Source: Opitutus sp. GAS368 (lineage in GTDB: Bacteria > Verrucomicrobiota > Verrucomicrobiia > Opitutales > Opitutaceae). From it: a DNA stretch of 35,478 nucleotides. Every line of letters begins with the position of its first letter. Positions within the stretch are counted from its first letter, which is position 1. The stretch spans positions 1 through 35,478 of the forward strand of contig CAMBUJ010000015.1 of NCBI GenBank assembly GCA_945871005.1. The letters are read 5' to 3'. The position numbers were made by a program, and so were the translations under genes. The notes below the pieces were generated by a model. The model was not told the origin of the DNA. It did no database searches and saw only the letters and a program-made list of their open reading frames with translations. Positions 11,484 through 18,077 of this stretch are shown here, one piece after another.

Positions 11484-12443
11484 GTGTCCGCTTCGCTTCC
11501 GCTTAACTCTGGCTCGCCCTCCTCTCCGCTTGCGCTGCTGCGCCGGTTGGAGTGGCGCGTGCGTCACGCCGTGGAAAACGTGCTCAGTGGCGAGTACCGC
11601 TCGGCGTTCCGCGGGCGCGGCATGGAGTTCGACCAGGTGGTCAAATACGAGTTCGGCGACGACGTGCGCGACATCGACTGGAACGTCACCGCCCGCCTCG
11701 GCGAACCGTACCGCAAGAAATTCGTCGAGGAGCGCGAGGTCACGGTGATGATCGTCTTCGAGGACACCCCCAGCCTCCAATTCGGCTCCGGCGCGCAGTC
11801 CAAGCGCGAGGCGCTGCTGGAACTGGCCGGGCTGGTCATGCTGCTGGGGGCGGTCAATCGTGACCGGGTTGGATTCCTTCACGCCAAGCCCGACGGCTAT
11901 ACCCTGCGCGAACCGGTGCGCGGTCGCGGACCGATTCTCCACGCCGCCGCCTCGCTGCTCGGAGCGGCAGCGCCAGCGCTGCAATCTCAAATCTCAGATC
12001 TCAAATCTCAGATCTCAGATTCACCCTCTCAGATCTCAAATCTCAGATCTCAGATACCCTGGCGCCTGCTCGCCCGGGCCGCCCCGCGCCACAGCATTCT
12101 GATTTGGCTGGGGGATTTCGCGCCCCGCCCGACCCCGGACGGCTGGGCGGTCATGCGGAAGCGGTATCAACCGATGGGCTTTCGCGTCGACGATCCGTGG
12201 GAGCGCGAGTTGCCCACGGGCGAGGCTTTTGCCGCCTACGATCCGGTGAACGGGCGCCTGGTGACGCTGGAAAACTCCTCAGCCGAGCGCGCCGCCCATG
12301 CCCGCTGGCGCGAGGAACGCGACGCGGCTTGGCGCGAGCTTTTACCCGACTCCCTCACCCGGCTGGTGGTGGGCACCGAAGAGGACCGCCTTGAGGCACT
12401 GGTGCGCTTTTTCCATGCCCGTCAGGCCGGCACCCGCCGATGA
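11484..12443 (+). CDS. DUF58 protein of the Bat cluster, with repeat insertion
   Basis: A soluble DUF58 protein of 319 residues. The signature is YEFGDDVRDIDWNVTARLGE (about 55-74), with VFEDTPSLQFG further on. It lacks the N-terminal membrane helices of the first DUF58 protein, as is usual in MoxR-DUF58-BatA operons. The start is GTG at 11484. Residues 167-192 are a low-complexity heptapeptide segment, QISDLKS/QISDSPS/QISNLRS, encoded by an ATCTCA(A/G) heptanucleotide repeat that does not belong to the family. It lies between LLGAAAPAL and PWRLLARA, probably in a surface loop. The stop overlaps the batA start (ATGA). Confidence 0.9.
   Translation: MSASLPLNSGSPSSPLALLRRLEWRVRHAVENVLSGEYRSAFRGRGMEFDQVVKYEFGDDVRDIDWNVTARLGEPYRKKFVEEREVTVMIVFEDTPSLQFGSGAQSKREALLELAGLVMLLGAVNRDRVGFLHAKPDGYTLREPVRGRGPILHAAASLLGAAAPALQSQISDLKSQISDSPSQISNLRSQIPWRLLARAAPRHSILIWLGDFAPRPTPDGWAVMRKRYQPMGFRVDDPWERELPTGEAFAAYDPVNGRLVTLENSSAERAAHARWREERDAAWRELLPDSLTRLVVGTEEDRLEALVRFFHARQAGTRR
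11984..12058 (+). repeat. In-frame heptanucleotide repeat ATCTCA(A/G), ten units
   Basis: Ten consecutive 7-bp units run from 11984 to 12053, then ATACC. Eight are exact ATCTCAA or ATCTCAG. Units six (ATTCACC, 12019-12025) and seven (CTCTCAG) are degenerate but keep the 7-bp phase. The array is translated within the DUF58 gene as a heptad with Ile and Leu three residues apart. The same repeat with the same ATACCC end occurs at 17047-17087. Repeat units read without stops in all three forward frames, but the reverse strand meets TGA in every frame. Confidence 0.95.
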
Positions 12444-13483
12444 ATAACCTCATCCTCCAGTCCCCGTTTTGGCTGCTGGCCCTCCTGCTCATTCCCGCGG
12501 TGATCTGGCTGCGCGGTCGCCGGGCGGTGCCCGTGTTGCTCGTGCCATTTGCGGCCGCCTGGCACCGGCCGTCCCAACTCTCGCCGTCACGTTGGCCGGC
12601 GGGCCTGACCATTATTGGACTCGTCCTGCTGATCGTAGCGCTGGCCCGGCCCCAGAACGTCGAGGATAAACGCGAAATCCACAGCCAGGGTTACGACATC
12701 ATGCTGGCCATCGACCTGTCGGGATCCATGCAGGCCGAGGACTACGAGAAAAAGGGCGAACGCATCAACCGTCTCCAGGCGATCAAGCCGGTCATCCAGG
12801 CCTTCATCGGCCAACGGCCCAACGACCGCATCGGCATCGTGGTATTTTCCGGCCGCGCCTACACGCTCGCCCCGCTGACCTTTGACCACGACTGGCTGGC
12901 CCGCCAAGTCGAGCGGCTCAAAATCGGCTTGATCGAGGACGGCACCGCGATTGGGGACGGACTTGGCCTCGCTCTGACCCGCCTCGAGCAAGCCACGCGC
13001 GCACAATCCGGCATGCGCAAGGGCGCCTTCGCCGTGTTGCTGACCGACGGTGCTAACAACCGCGGCGCCCTCAGCCCCATGCAGTCCGCCGCGGTGGCCA
13101 AGGGTCGCGGCATCCCGGTCTACACCATCGGCGCCGGCCGCGACGGTTTGGTCCCGTTTCCCGTCTTCGACCAAGCAGGCAACCGCGTCGGAACCACCCG
13201 CATGGCCTCCGACCTCGACCAAACCATGCTGGTCGAGATCGCTCAACTCACCGGCGGACAGGCGTACCGGGCCGACGATTCCAAAACCATCGAGTCCGCC
13301 TTCAAAGCCATCGACCGGGCCCAAAAAATCGAGTTTCAGGCCAAAAGTTTTCTGCTGACCACGGAGCTATTCACCTGGGTCGCGGTGCCCGGCTTGGGCT
13401 GCTTGTTACTCGCCGCGCTCGTCTCCGGCACCGCCGCTTGGCGCGCCACAACCCCCACCCCGCGTCCGCCGGTTTCCCCATGA
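12440..13483 (+). CDS. batA: BatA-like VWA-domain membrane protein
   Basis: A membrane-anchored von Willebrand A protein of 347 residues. Helices lie near residues 10-25 and 55-72 (WPAGLTIIGLVLLIVALARP) and near the C-terminus (WVAVPGLGCLLLAALVSG). The VWA domain at about 85-290 has a complete MIDAS: DLSGS (Asp92, Ser94, Ser96), Thr169 in EDGTAIGDG and Asp203 in LLTDGANN, so metal binding should be intact. Bat proteins were named from Bacteroides aerotolerance loci and are thought to form an envelope complex with MoxR. The ATG at 12440 overlaps the DUF58 stop by 4 nt, and its own stop overlaps batB in the same way, indicating tight coupling. Confidence 0.93.
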   Translation: MNNLILQSPFWLLALLLIPAVIWLRGRRAVPVLLVPFAAAWHRPSQLSPSRWPAGLTIIGLVLLIVALARPQNVEDKREIHSQGYDIMLAIDLSGSMQAEDYEKKGERINRLQAIKPVIQAFIGQRPNDRIGIVVFSGRAYTLAPLTFDHDWLARQVERLKIGLIEDGTAIGDGLGLALTRLEQATRAQSGMRKGAFAVLLTDGANNRGALSPMQSAAVAKGRGIPVYTIGAGRDGLVPFPVFDQAGNRVGTTRMASDLDQTMLVEIAQLTGGQAYRADDSKTIESAFKAIDRAQKIEFQAKSFLLTTELFTWVAVPGLGCLLLAALVSGTAAWRATTPTPRPPVSP

Positions 13484-15438
13484 GCTTCTACTGGCCCCAC
13501 GCGTTCTGGTTGTTACTCATTCCTGCCGGCTTGCTCGCGCTCAGCCTGCGCCAGCGGCGCGCCGCCACGGCCAGCGCCCGCCCCAAAATCACTCAGGCGG
13601 AGGCCCGCCAATCTTCGCTTGTTCTGGGTCCAGCGACGTCGCGCTCGGGTGCGGGCCGCGCCCGCCTGCTGTTCACCTTCGGGCTGGTCGCGGCGATCGG
13701 GGCCGTCGCCCGGCCGCAATGGGGCCAGTTGGAGGAACCCGTCTTCGACCAGGCCCGCGAGATCATTATCGCCCTGGATTTGTCCCGCAGCATGTTGGCC
13801 GAAGATGTGAAGCCCTCCCGGCTGGAACGCGCCCGCCTGCTCATCACCAGCCTGCTCGAACGCCTCAAGGGCGAGCGCGTCGGCCTGGTGGTTTTTTCCG
13901 GCACCGCTTTTCTACAAAGCCCACTCAGCTCCGACTACGAGATTTTGCGCGAATTCCTGCCGGTGTTGAATCCCGATTACCTGCCCGAGGGCGGGACCAA
14001 TTATGACGCGCTGCTTGAAACCACCCTCAGCGCCTTCGGGGCCTCCGGCGCCGCCGACCGCTTCCTCATCGTGCTCAGCGACGGCGAAGCCCAATCGACG
14101 ACCTGGCAAAAACACGTCGATGAACTCAAAACCAAAGGCATCCGCGTGCTCTCCCTCGGAGTGGGCACCGACGACGGCGCGATGATCCCCGACGGGGCCG
14201 GCGCGTTTGTGAAAGATGAACGCGGCGCGGTGGTCATGTCCAAACTCACCCCGACGAGCTTGCGCGAACTGGCCGACAAAACCGAAGGCCGCTACATTGA
14301 CGCGAGCTCGTGGGTCGACCTTGCGCAACTCATCCAGGGCACGGTTGAGCAGGGCAAACGCGGTGAGTTCAAAGAAAACACCCGCGTGCGCCTGGCCGAG
14401 CGCTACCAGTGGCCGTTGGGTGCCGCCCTCGTTTTGCTGCTGCTCAGCTTCTGGCGTGAATTCCCCGTGCGCCCCCGCCCGCGGGCGATCCAACTCGCCG
14501 CTTCTGCCGGCAAAGCCAGCGCGCTCGCGCTCGCTTTTTTGATCGCCCTGCTTGGAACGGCGACCTCCGTGCGTGCAGCCGAACCCGCCTCCCCGGGCGC
14601 GGCCACGGCCGCTCTAGCCGCGCCGGTGGCTCAACTGGTTACCCGCCTCGCCACCCTACCGCAGGCCGGCGCGACGGACTACGCTGAACTCGCCCAGACC
14701 ACGCTCACCTTTGGCGAGCGCACCCAAGCGGCCCACCAGCCCGTGCCTGAAGGCGCGGTGCGCGACGCCCTCGCTGCGGTTGCTTCCGGTGCCGCCCTCG
14801 ATTCCAAGGGCGCGGACTGGCCCGCCCTGCGCGAACAACTGGAAGCACTCCTCCCCAAAAGGGATCAGCCCAAGTCTGACTCCTCAAAGCCGGAGGAAAA
14901 AAAGCCCGAGCAAAACAAGAAGGACAAATCCGACCAAAAAGATAAGTCCGGCGAGAAGGGCGACTCCGCGCACTCACCTGAACAGGACAAAGACCAGAAA
15001 TCCGATTCCTCGAAGCCTGATGACACAAAGTCGGACGAAAAAAAGTCCGACGACTCCAAGTCGGGTAAGGACGGCAAAGGTGAAAACTCCCCGCCGCCGG
15101 CTGATTCCAACAAAAAGCCCGACTCACCCGGCCAATCGGCCTTTGGCGACATGAAGGACGATCCGGCCAAACAGCCGCCCCCCAAAGACGCGGGTGGGGA
15201 AAAACCGCAGCCCGACCCGGCTCAGCCGCCGGCCGAGCAACCCCCGTCCGGCGAGATGCAGCAGGTCGGCGGCGCGCCCGAGCAAGCCTCCAGTGATCCG
15301 GCCCGCCAAGATCCCAACCTAACGGTCCCGCTGCAAAAACTCGACCAAGTGAAGCAGGGCGATTCCCCCGCCCGGCTCTTTCAACTCCTACAAGGCCCCG
15401 CCGCCGACCAACCGGCCAACAAGGGCAAAAACTGGTAA
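13480..15438 (+). CDS. batB: BatB VWA protein fused to a BatC-like domain
   Basis: 652 residues, starting at the ATG at 13480 (4-nt overlap with batA; an upstream in-frame TTG is less likely). Residues 1-325 are BatB-like: N-terminal helices, a VWA domain with intact MIDAS (DLSRS with Asp100, Ser102 and Ser104; Thr173; Asp201), and a helix near 312-325. Residues about 346-368 (SALALAFLIALLGTATSVRA) look like an internal signal peptide with an AxA-like site, as if a secreted protein had been joined on. The remainder is a BatC-like region: alpha-helical, then a long Lys/Asp/Ser/Pro-rich linker (about 465-620) and the conserved end LQKLDQVKQGDSPARLFQLL. The linker is probably disordered. The fusion is inferred from domain order. 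Confidence 0.9.
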   Translation: MSFYWPHAFWLLLIPAGLLALSLRQRRAATASARPKITQAEARQSSLVLGPATSRSGAGRARLLFTFGLVAAIGAVARPQWGQLEEPVFDQAREIIIALDLSRSMLAEDVKPSRLERARLLITSLLERLKGERVGLVVFSGTAFLQSPLSSDYEILREFLPVLNPDYLPEGGTNYDALLETTLSAFGASGAADRFLIVLSDGEAQSTTWQKHVDELKTKGIRVLSLGVGTDDGAMIPDGAGAFVKDERGAVVMSKLTPTSLRELADKTEGRYIDASSWVDLAQLIQGTVEQGKRGEFKENTRVRLAERYQWPLGAALVLLLLSFWREFPVRPRPRAIQLAASAGKASALALAFLIALLGTATSVRAAEPASPGAATAALAAPVAQLVTRLATLPQAGATDYAELAQTTLTFGERTQAAHQPVPEGAVRDALAAVASGAALDSKGADWPALREQLEALLPKRDQPKSDSSKPEEKKPEQNKKDKSDQKDKSGEKGDSAHSPEQDKDQKSDSSKPDDTKSDEKKSDDSKSGKDGKGENSPPPADSNKKPDSPGQSAFGDMKDDPAKQPPPKDAGGEKPQPDPAQPPAEQPPSGEMQQVGGAPEQASSDPARQDPNLTVPLQKLDQVKQGDSPARLFQLLQGPAADQPANKGKNW

Positions 15439-15505
15439 GCGCCCAGTTTAAACACTCCCCGCCCCGCCGTCTCACCTTCACCCCTGCCCACGTCACAATT
15501 CCGAC

Positions 15506-15536
15506 TTTCGTGTCTTCCGTGTGTTTCGTGGTAAAC
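15506..15536. repeat. TTTCGTGTCTTCCGTGTGTT-type intergenic repeat
   Basis: A short quasi-periodic stretch of CGTG-containing units, three within 30 bases, ending in TTTCGTGGTAAAC. On the other strand it reads ACCACGAAACACACGGAAG and would encode TTKHTEDTK, a peptide I recall from spurious ORFs in many verrucomicrobial and planctomycete genomes. It lies in the 119-nt gap between batB-C and batD-E. A GTG inside it could extend batD-E by 16 residues, but the resulting N-terminus is not signal-like. Identity as a dispersed repeat is recall, not checked. Confidence 0.55.
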
Positions 15537-15557
15537 CCGTTCCGCCTTTCCGTCCCG

Positions 15558-18077
15558 ATGCTCCGCCGCCTCCTTTTCCTCTTCTCTCTGCTACTCGCCT
15601 TTGTCATCCACGCGAATTTGCACGCCCAAGCCGTGCATTGGGAACCCGGCGCGGGCACGCTGGCCTTCAATCAAACCAGCGAGCTGAGCCTGGTGTTCGA
15701 ACAGTGCGAACCGTCCGACATGTTTAAATTACCGGTCGTACCCGGACTCACCTTTATCGGTCAGCCCACCCGCTCCACGTCCAGCTCCTACTCGGTGGTG
15801 AACTTCAAAGCCACCTCGCTCAAAACCATCACCTTGACCTACCGGGTTCGCCCCAACGAGCGCCGCACCGTCCAAATTCCCGCGTTCCAAATCGACACCG
15901 ACAAGGGCAGGCAAACCGTGTCCGCCGCCACCTTTGACGTCAGCGATGCCACCGTCGGCCAATCCAACTTGTCCCTCGAGTCCATCGTCCAGACCCGGTT
16001 CACCCTGCCGGCCGGGTCGGTTTGGGCCGGAGAAGTTTTCCCGCTGAGTTACTCGCTGCACACCACCCGGCGCTATTTTTATCAGCTCGGCAACGACCCC
16101 GAATGGAACCCGGCCCCGCTCAGCGTGGAGGCGTGGAGTAAACCCGAGGGCACCGAATCGACGGTCAACAACGAGCAACGTATCACCGTTATCTACAAAA
16201 CCCGCGCCTACGCCAAGACCGCCGGCACGGTGGCACTCAATCCGGCCAGCCAGTTGGTTAACCTCACCACCGGGGCCCAGTCCGGCTTCGGGCTGTTTGC
16301 GCGCCAGAGTCTGGATCAGTATGCCGTTACCAGCCAGCCAGCCAGCCTGACGGTGCGCGCCCTGCCCACCCCGTCGCCCGCTGGTTTCGCCGGCGCGGTC
16401 GGCAAGTTCACGCTCGACTCCAAAGTCGTCCCCGCCACCGCCAGTATCGGCGAACCCATCACGTGGACACTCACCTTTGAGGGCACCGGCAACTGGCCCG
16501 ACCTCGGCGGTCTTCCCGCCCGCTCGGTGTCCAAGGATTTCCGTGTGGTTCAGCCCCAGGCCAAACGCACCAACAAAGAAAACGCACTCTTCGACGCCGC
16601 GATCACCGAGGACATCATCCTCATCCCCACGCGGGCCGGCAGCTACACCCTGGGGCCGGTCAAGGTGGTTATCTTCAACCCCAGCACGGGCGCCTATGAG
16701 ACGCTGACCACCCCCGCAGTAACCGTACAAGTTGCGGGCGCGCCCACCGGTCCCAACGGACAACCGGCCACGCCGCCAGCGGTAACGGTAAACGGCACGG
16801 CTTCGCCCCCCGCCCTTACCGCGGTGGGAGTTGAACGTGCAGCCGCACCCGCCGCGCCCATCCCGCGCGATCCGCTCCCGCCGGACGGCCGCAGTTTTCA
16901 ACCGCTGGCCCAATCCACTCTGCTGGGCGGACTGCTCGCCGCCGTCCTCCTGCCGCTGGGTGTCTGGCTCACTCTCGCGCGGCGCCGGGCCCAGCAAACC
17001 GATCCCGGCCGCCCCCTGCGCGAAGCCCACGCCCGGCTCGAATCGAATCTCAGATCTCAAATCTCAGATCTTAAATCCCAGATACCCGCCAGCGCGCTCC
17101 AGCACTGGCAACGCGACACCGCCATCCTCTGGAAACTAGACACGGCGGTGCCCACGCCCAAGCATTTCCCCGACGCCACCTGGTCGATCCTCTGGGCCGA
17201 GGCCGACCGCACGCTCTATGGCGCCGCCGAGCTGCCCACCGACTGGCCGCAACGCGCGCAACAAGCCCTCCTCGCCCGCCCCGCCCCAGCCTTCTCGTCT
17301 TGGCAGCTCTTCATTCCGCGCAACTTGCTCCCCCTGCTCCTGCTTGCCGCCGTTCTCCTGCCCGCGCCCACCAGTCTGGCCGCCGACGCCCGCGACGCCT
17401 ACGCCAAGGGCGATTTCGCCACCGCCGAATCCACTTGGAGCGCCGAGCTCAAAGCCAGTCCGACCGACTGGGTGGCGCACCACAACCTCGCGCTCGTACT
17501 CTTGCAGCAAAACCGCGCCAGCGAAGCCGCCGGCCACTCCCTCGCCGCCTTCGTGCAACAGCCCTGTAACGCGTCGGTTAACTGGCACCTCGGCTACACC
17601 TGGAAAACCGCTGGCGTCACCCCGGCCGCGCTCGCGCCCTTCCTCGCCAACGCCCCGGCGGCCGCCCTGGCCCGCCTCGCCTCACCCACCGTCTGGCAAG
17701 CAGGACTGTTGGCCGCGACGTGGCTGACCGCGGTGGCCCTAGGGCTGGCTATTTACGGAGCCTTTAACCCCAGCCCCAAATCCTGGCGCCGCTGGCTCAC
17801 CCGCAGCCTGTTCGCGGTTTCGCTCCTGCTGGCCGTGGCCGCAGGGGTCAGCCTGAAAACCTATGGTCCGCTCACCGACGCCCATGCGGTGGTGGTGGTG
17901 AAGGCAACCGTGCTGCGTTCCATCCCCACCGATTTGGACACTCCGCAAAAATCGACCTCGTTGGCGGTCGGCGTGGTGGCGTCAACCGACAAGGCCTTCC
18001 TTGGCTGGCGCCGACTGGTCTTTGAAGACGGCCAAACCGGCTGGGTTCGCGCCGAGACGCTCGTGCCCCTGTGGTAG
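15558..18077 (+). CDS. batD: BatD protein fused to BatE-like TPR and SH3 domains
   Basis: 839 residues from the ATG at 15558, chosen because it begins a good signal peptide (MLRRLLFLFSLLLAFVIHAN, cleavage near HAQA). Residues about 27-440 are the beta-rich periplasmic BatD region, followed by a membrane helix (about 454-475). A short cytoplasmic part contains the heptad segment SNLRSQISDLKSQIP (about 496-510), encoded by the same repeat as in the DUF58 gene. A second signal-like helix near 588-610 (LLPLLLLAAVLLPAPTSLAA) precedes TPR units (ADARDAYAKGDFATAE...), then two helices (about 720-770) and a C-terminal bacterial SH3-like domain (about 774-835, VVVKATVLRS...GWVRAETLVPLW). The second half matches BatE. 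It is the last gene of the Bat cluster. Confidence 0.88.
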   Translation: MLRRLLFLFSLLLAFVIHANLHAQAVHWEPGAGTLAFNQTSELSLVFEQCEPSDMFKLPVVPGLTFIGQPTRSTSSSYSVVNFKATSLKTITLTYRVRPNERRTVQIPAFQIDTDKGRQTVSAATFDVSDATVGQSNLSLESIVQTRFTLPAGSVWAGEVFPLSYSLHTTRRYFYQLGNDPEWNPAPLSVEAWSKPEGTESTVNNEQRITVIYKTRAYAKTAGTVALNPASQLVNLTTGAQSGFGLFARQSLDQYAVTSQPASLTVRALPTPSPAGFAGAVGKFTLDSKVVPATASIGEPITWTLTFEGTGNWPDLGGLPARSVSKDFRVVQPQAKRTNKENALFDAAITEDIILIPTRAGSYTLGPVKVVIFNPSTGAYETLTTPAVTVQVAGAPTGPNGQPATPPAVTVNGTASPPALTAVGVERAAAPAAPIPRDPLPPDGRSFQPLAQSTLLGGLLAAVLLPLGVWLTLARRRAQQTDPGRPLREAHARLESNLRSQISDLKSQIPASALQHWQRDTAILWKLDTAVPTPKHFPDATWSILWAEADRTLYGAAELPTDWPQRAQQALLARPAPAFSSWQLFIPRNLLPLLLLAAVLLPAPTSLAADARDAYAKGDFATAESTWSAELKASPTDWVAHHNLALVLLQQNRASEAAGHSLAAFVQQPCNASVNWHLGYTWKTAGVTPAALAPFLANAPAAALARLASPTVWQAGLLAATWLTAVALGLAIYGAFNPSPKSWRRWLTRSLFAVSLLLAVAAGVSLKTYGPLTDAHAVVVVKATVLRSIPTDLDTPQKSTSLAVGVVASTDKAFLGWRRLVFEDGQTGWVRAETLVPLW
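17047..17087 (+). repeat. In-frame heptanucleotide repeat, second copy (five units)
   Basis: Five 7-bp units at 17047-17081 (ATCTCAG, ATCTCAA, ATCTCAG, ATCTTAA, ATCCCAG) followed by ATACCC. The first unit starts at codon position 2, whereas the array at 11984 starts at position 3, yet both encode the same cyclic heptapeptide. Both arrays end in the same codon frame (CAG ATA CCC). The last two units are degenerate, suggesting an older or decaying copy. Confidence 0.93.

Follow-up and report, generated by a model that had tools for sequence, protein, structure and literature searches.

We analysed a stretch of 35,478 nucleotides (nt) of Opitutus sp. GAS368 DNA (contig CAMBUJ010000015.1, assembly GCA_945871005.1), here called the window, in which a DUF58 gene and a BatD gene of one operon carry short direct repeats of a heptanucleotide, ATCTCAR. 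The genes, the repeats (heptamer patches) and an adjoining hairpin lie as follows.

11484..12443, + strand: DUF58 gene, 319 amino acids (PF01882, E 1.8e-32), with the first array in a variable linker
11967..11982, no strand assigned: GC-rich hairpin, 7-base-pair (bp) perfect stem and 2-nt loop, abutting the first array
11983..12021, + strand: heptamer patch 1a, 39 nt, five ATCTCAR units plus ends (scoring scan)
12027..12055, + strand: heptamer patch 1b, 29 nt (scoring scan)
15510..18077, + strand: BatD gene (PF13584, E 8.7e-21; a TPR_16 match falls under its cut-off), holding the second array
17046..17083, + strand: heptamer patch 2, 38 nt, five units plus ends, protein length net unchanged

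At two or fewer mismatches the window holds 13 matches to two units, whereas 100 shuffles averaged 0.27 and never exceeded 2. A first-pass annotation, made from the letters alone, had given the places and the strand of both arrays correctly, naming the BatD gene batD-E. It had counted ten units in a single run at 11984-12053; eight of these are perfect ATCTCAR, one (CTCTCAG) has one mismatch and one (ATTCACC) is not a unit, and by score the run splits into 11983-12021 and 12027-12055. The five units it gave at 17047-17081 comprise three perfect ones and two with one mismatch each. Both genes are open through their arrays and read the common peptide ..SQISDLKSQ.., and CAG ATA CCC follows the array in both, as had been described. 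That the repeat spells one cyclic peptide in every forward frame is also right, and is plain arithmetic, because any stop-free unit with a length not divisible by 3 has this property.

The same annotation held that the repeat was inserted in both genes. For DUF58 this agrees with the longer linker, 114 nt in the window against a commonest length of 60 nt (33 of 81 linkers; the records behind the orthologues bear the titles Opitutaceae, Opitutae and Verrucomicrobia). In BatD, however, the anchor-to-anchor distance across the array is 34 amino acids, the commonest value among the measured orthologues (22 of 59), so that the array stands in place of other sequence: it is a replacement, with no net insertion. 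The suggestion that the peptide forms a helix with a coiled-coil heptad did not hold up. In a structure model of the DUF58 protein (30-sequence alignment, mean predicted local distance difference test score, pLDDT, of 70.7), residues 171-176 and 178-186, which make up most of the repeat, fall below a pLDDT of 50 and only a short, uncertain helix appears at 168-177; copies are mostly about 10 residues long, and another unit common in the genome spells SSQLxAP.

The window's two arrays are real, but nothing about them is peculiar to their operon. In the window's own genome (G000, Opitutaceae; 3.48 Mb in 305 contigs), three units matched 162 times at three or fewer mismatches and the reversed pattern, used as a control, did not match at all; 62 of the 162 are absent from the matches listed, and places known from these alone are not among the segments described below. 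Segments were sought around the matches in all 29 contigs with a match at two or fewer mismatches, the window sequence standing in for its own contig, and in one more contig (C8, L140), which gave none. The scoring scan returned 62 segments with the consensus, ATYTSAR, and one with the reversed consensus. L131 and L136 represent a single locus seen at the ends of two contigs, and L136 was excluded from the segment and codon-phase counts. At two or fewer mismatches, 15 of 56 genomes (own included) had a match, with 92 matches in G000, followed by 30 in G034 and 12 in G025. Across the phylum, 20 of 288 genomes (own included) matched at one mismatch or none, in a search where the reversed control also matched in three genomes (2, 3 and 1 times). 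ATYTSAR patches are scattered through G000 and rare in its sister genomes. Another unit, AGCTNNN, starts at 443 places in G002 and 226 in G000, compared with 0-4 in 11 further genomes searched within the genus. AACTCTC units are present in 26 of 150 genomes of the family, where the reversed pattern is the same repeat in another register and gives no control. Two genomes of the same class and another order, G231 and G117, carry ATCTCAA units repeated without variation (26 and 8 matches among those listed, on a single strand), which resemble ordinary long tandem arrays more than the short mixed patches of G000.

The patches have a preferred length. Of the 62 segments, 39 measure 29-33 nt, compared with 3 of 22-28 nt, 10 of 34-40 nt, 9 longer and 1 shorter, and 35 hold four complete heptamers (2 nt set aside). 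Starts fall in phase 6, 0 or 1 for 54 of the 62 and ends in phase 1, 2 or 3 for an equal number; since the ends mostly lie in nearby registers, the common form is AT(YTSARAT)4, about 30 nt. The consensus is self-reverse-complementary after rotation. Among 280 units, A1 (270), T2 (273), T4 (260) and A6 (254) are 91-98% fixed and Y, S and R are near even, a contrast that is partly built in because the segments were found with the ATYTSAR consensus. Pair selection within the 30-mer was considered and rejected, as Y and R combine almost freely.

The period of seven recurs in relatives. In 80 of their loci (1.28 Mb), 73 arrays were found at lag 7, against 21, 12 and 13 at lags 6, 8 and 9 and 20 and 22 at lags 14 and 15; 41 of the 73 measured 29-33 nt and 16 measured 22-28 nt. 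Within a sampled 400 kb of G002, tetramers repeated exactly five-fold at a fixed spacing had 145 starts at lag 7 and none at lags 5, 6 and 8-12. These merged into 27 arrays, one of which is a poly-G run and 18 of which come from one 20-kb island. In the island (L195, G002:C1:820001-840000) longer repeated modules surround the arrays, and we take some of its reading frames to be transposase-like; one frame of 355 amino acids is present twice. Long AGCTNNN arrays (L182, L183, L186, L187) are two-armed, with G before AGCT in the left arm and C after AGCT in the right, a layout that would let the strand fold back. A general unit of four fixed and three free positions appears in the pooled AGCT arrays but not in those of relatives, and was rejected: among 57 arrays of at least 28 nt, the variable columns were contiguous in 6 of 23 with two such columns (7.7 expected) and in 1 of 6 with three (1.2 expected).

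The patches often reside in genes. Open gene frames hold 40 of the 61 segments read, gene calls resting on a codon-usage score with no gene finder used; the 21 others include three (L119, L129) in open frames at a lower score. The hosts, some of them core genes, include UvrA, SMC, Tex, glutamate synthase, isocitrate dehydrogenase and sulfite reductase. Pfam matches name DUF58, BatD, monomeric isocitrate dehydrogenase, Tex, the SMC hinge, glutamate synthase, N6_Mtase (HsdM), AMP-binding and NIR_SIR, and PDB matches also back the names of isocitrate dehydrogenase and one UvrA (L122). A second UvrA (L120), DnaE, CrtI-like, T2SS-F-like, SNF2, WD40, DmsB, carboxylase and E2 are labels that we presume from sequence likeness. 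The peptides are variants of rotations of I-S-[ND]-L-K-S-[QE].

We then compared the S base of the units by codon phase. Where a G would make TGA, S was C in 46 units, T in 2 and G in none of 48; in the other genic phases it was C in 65, G in 32, T in 2 and A in 5 of 104, and in segments not called genic C in 29, G in 42, T in 4 and A in 2. The difference between 0 of 48 and 32 of 104 is significant (Fisher, 7e-7). The absence of G solely in the stop phase suggests that units of both strands arrive and that stops are purged. The first-pass annotation had proposed that genes tolerate only one orientation; TGA-forming units are indeed missing, but S = C and S = G both occur in genes, so the constraint is one of codon phase. 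The first unit begins in codon phases 0, 1 and 2 in 11, 14 and 15 cases, and entry of the patches is frame-blind.

Sites matching those of G000 were then read in relatives. In isocitrate dehydrogenase the patch adds 10 residues compared with PDB 1itw, and 10 codons compared with 7 of 11 relatives (9 compared with an eighth), 8 of the 11 lacking the array; the other 3 have different heptamers in the same loop or turn. The Tex array is absent in 11 of 11 relatives, and the alignment puts 10 extra residues in the patch for 7 of them. At the first GltB site, no array was seen by eye in any of the 13 loci fetched (L177 and L178 being more distant, 43-44% identical), and at the second an AGCT array is common to G000 and G002, 21 nt different in length with the frame kept. 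Thirteen further stretches were compared by eye with G002 and G012. For five of them (UvrA twice, CrtI-like, HsdM and T2SS-F-like), G002 carries AGCT arrays (AGCTCNN) in the same loop, and for two (sulfite reductase and AMP-ligase) the relatives have an unrelated repeat at the patch site. The DmsB relatives have short ATCCCAA-like stretches, and in DnaE, WD40, carboxylase and SNF2 no clear array was seen in G002 or G012. As a separate observation, G002 and G012 contain, where G000 has its patches, a different repeat that also keeps the frame: AGTAGCGCAGACTTCCAGTCTGC, which has an inner palindrome and encodes the peptide SSADFQSA, lies in two unrelated genes (L232 and L230, sulfite reductase; L219, AMP-ligase; less clearly L222).

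Not all copies appear recent. At the SMC site both relatives hold an older, diverged copy, and the stretch is longer in G000. Here the peptide is shared with diverged codons, a pattern found at this one site in two relatives; the first-pass annotation had itself named this pattern as one that would refute its inserting element, and some copies are therefore old. A lag of 7 gives 12 or more matches out of 14 in the DUF58 linker of 8 of the 80 loci, in which the units are other ones, compared with 1 of 80 at any other lag from 4 to 12; the arrays of L061, L070 and L099 have inverted arms by eye. An ATYTSAR array of at least three units was found in none of the 80 DUF58 loci, but L032, L036 and L039 have a near spelling (..KSQIPW) in the linker, so the DUF58 array of the window may be old and shared, with a spelling that has since drifted. 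Some protein loops that are patched in G000 hold heptamers of other spellings in relatives. Taken together, the idea of a repeat family that spreads into genes while keeping their frame is supported by patches that are genome-wide, often genic, about 30 nt long and absent at relatives' sites.

Hairpins lie at the edges of many arrays. Perfect stems of at least 6 bp occur in 26 of 88 own flanks (one hairpin being counted twice, as L131 and L136 are one locus) compared with 8.6% of 11,205 random windows, and 20 of the 26 lie within 2 nt of the array. In relatives' flanks such stems occur in 31 of 146 (8.7% in random windows), and 13 of the 31 abut the array, against 22%. The isocitrate dehydrogenase stem is 9 bp in G000 and 3-6 bp in five array-free relatives; that of Tex is 6 bp compared with 4-5 in six relatives, that of the carboxylase-like gene 7 bp compared with 3 and 5, and the 11-bp WD40-like stem is longer than the same flank in relatives, DmsB not being measurable. 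The hairpins mostly look gained together with the arrays. Folded as RNA, the DUF58 stretch 11960-12060 gave a z of -3.95 against shuffles, its hairpin drawn as a 6-bp stem; the BatD stretch (z -1.18) folded no better than shuffles.

Our preferred reading, which we hold tentatively and at a little under an even chance, is that the arrays are copies of a dispersed, selfish-like patch of about 30 nt, which template switching transfers from one site to another and which loops and disordered linkers tolerate. We infer copying as the mechanism, as follows. A stalled or broken replication end would switch template to an array elsewhere, copy about 30 nt from it and return to its own template, and where the nascent strand folds back an adjoining inverted repeat would arise. 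Such an event may add DNA, as in isocitrate dehydrogenase, or overwrite it, as in BatD. The patch would be kept if its landing place is a surface loop or disordered linker and it carries no in-frame TGA, and selection would remove the others; it would be tolerated because 30 nt are ten codons and because every frame of a heptamer array gives one and the same peptide. Template switching would explain the shared spelling, the length-neutral replacement, the changes by multiples of the unit and the new inverted repeats.

Several points weigh against this proposal. Neither a copying event nor an enzyme has been seen. Template switching leaves unexplained the near-even Y, S and R beside fixed A1, T2, T4 and A6, a contrast that is partly built in, and also the AGCT arrays that reach 34 units and vary in their spacers; and a discrete element or a protein-bound length would fit the narrow length peak equally well. 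The Tex protein is 12-13 residues longer than its relatives at the site, not 10 alone. The comparison of stems favours shorter ones in relatives, since long own stems guided the choice of flanks. Array-bearing relatives of the L122 UvrA have 9- and 6-bp stems of other sequence, and the HsdM stem is 7 bp in array-bearing G002 compared with 5 in G000, so that hairpins could be preferred targets. The DUF58 stem of the window sits in conserved coding sequence, the LLG.PAPAL region shared by orthologues, and there it would lie in older coding sequence.

A miniature mobile element of about 30 bp, moved by a transposase in trans (for example a Y1 enzyme associated with repetitive extragenic palindromes, acting on folded single strands) with GC-rich hairpins as preferred targets, is an unlikely alternative. 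The narrow length peak, the hairpins at array edges, the clean gain of 10 codons in isocitrate dehydrogenase and the clade-limited bursts of AGCT arrays all speak for it. By eye, however, the isocitrate dehydrogenase and Tex alignments show no constant ends beyond the heptamers and no target duplication (no systematic test was made), BatD has no length gain, and Y1_Tnp counts do not seem to follow the arrays: G000 has 1, G012 has 0 and G043, with 1 array match, has 17. On these counts the idea of a Y1 transposase that keeps pace with the arrays in copy number was set aside; some Y1_Tnp match is present in 21 of 28 genomes. The contig with the only Y1_Tnp match of G000 (C128:2034-2282, E 3.1e-10) also has an array in its N6-methylase (HsdM) gene, and in the region of the Y1_Tnp gene (L179) a scan for AGCT arrays only listed none.

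We consider it improbable that the arrays are selected as DNA or RNA sites, bound by a heptad-binding protein or acting as RNA hairpins, with their presence in genes a collateral effect. Long AGCT arrays hold their tetramer while the spacers vary, and many are two-armed (the scan required AGCT, so this is partly built in), and the DUF58 stretch folds better than shuffles, but the BatD stretch does not, the places differ between sister genomes, and a fixed core with a free spacer is not general, contiguity in the 57 relatives' arrays being at chance.

More speculative still, and to us quite improbable, is a DNA-writing activity of Opitutaceae, telomerase- or polymerase-like, that would write roughly 30 nt of a heptamer peculiar to the lineage wherever DNA breaks or forks stall, a new 'dialect' overwriting old patches in the same loops and re-sculpting disordered parts of core proteins. 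Local slippage, with every array expanding on the spot from a seed that arose by chance, is very improbable and was rejected on the length peak, the arrays at period 7 only in the G002 sample and the common spelling across loci. In its favour, bacteria often have heptanucleotide repeats, for which slippage has been put forward (Mrazek 2007, as told in PMC4679880), the lengths of one shared array lie 21 nt apart in two species and some AGCT arrays have runs of identical units, but the same spelling recurs at dozens of unrelated loci and is mostly missing from those loci in sisters, few arrays are shorter than the 29-33 nt peak, and the G002 sample has no five-fold array at another period.

Known repeat families offer partial parallels. 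The GGGAATC / GGGANTN heptamers of Xanthomonas and Nostoc also form dispersed arrays with unit positions partly conserved and partly free, and both their heptamer period and their four-unit mode are found here; in them four units are commonest and convergent pairs, another shared trait, lie close, with 70 cases in Xanthomonas campestris pv. campestris, where the repeats number 186 (PMC4692102). They are G-rich and their four-unit mode is tied to G-quadruplexes, whereas the similar length peak here belongs to units that are not G-rich, with no run of three G on either strand of the window units or the ATYTSAR consensus. They are described as under-represented in coding regions (PMC4692102); here 40 of 61 segments lie in open gene frames, a raw count that takes no account of the genome's coding fraction. 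The TAACTGA repeats of Beggiatoaceae are likewise heptamer direct repeats with a stop asymmetry and some genic copies, giving stops in one orientation and the peptide LSVISYQ in the other, for which a leucine zipper was considered and then doubted (MacGregor 2015, PMC4679880). According to that account they are mostly intergenic, just upstream of starts, of one spelling and thought to be regulatory, unlike the present patches, which are often genic, have several spellings and face array-free sites in close relatives. Rickettsia palindromic elements also place short, palindrome-prone DNA in frame in unrelated genes, but are about 150 bp long with a conserved peptide each, compared with about 30 nt, a heptamer period and a stop-phase rule here (Ogata 2000, 2002, as told in the review PMC10969869). 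Palindromic amphipathic repeat coding elements (PARCELs) share the coding repeats, dyad symmetry and punctate spread; as reported they are tandem domains of 25 residues in proteins without assigned function, whereas the present patches are of 10 residues and lie in enzymes (PMC2996958). The anatomy of the patches resembles that of the Xanthomonas GGGAATC repeats, and their life in genes that of the Rickettsia elements. Related work covers heptamer satellites (PMC6749651), simple-repeat surveys (PMC4060949) and Borg tandem repeats (PMC9879509), and a literature search judged mostly on titles and abstract openings recognised no description of such repeats in Opitutaceae.

If the proposed copying is correct, a short periodic DNA patch enters core genes repeatedly and in frame, and in sister species some of these loops bear patches of another spelling. 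One could then study directly the spread of dispersed heptamer repeats, the preference for four to five units even without G-quadruplexes, and the supply of new disordered protein segments by parasitic DNA. There is a caution in it as well: insertions confined to one lineage in core bacterial proteins may be repeat DNA and not adaptation. In relatives, several in-gene arrays lie directly after a hydrophobic stretch like the end of a signal peptide (L070 12981-13009, reading ..IFILLAGFRFPVSGFAAED..; L061 5847-5875 and 8442-8461; L071 7695-7718; L056 15934-15963), and such ends may be another place that tolerates arrays.

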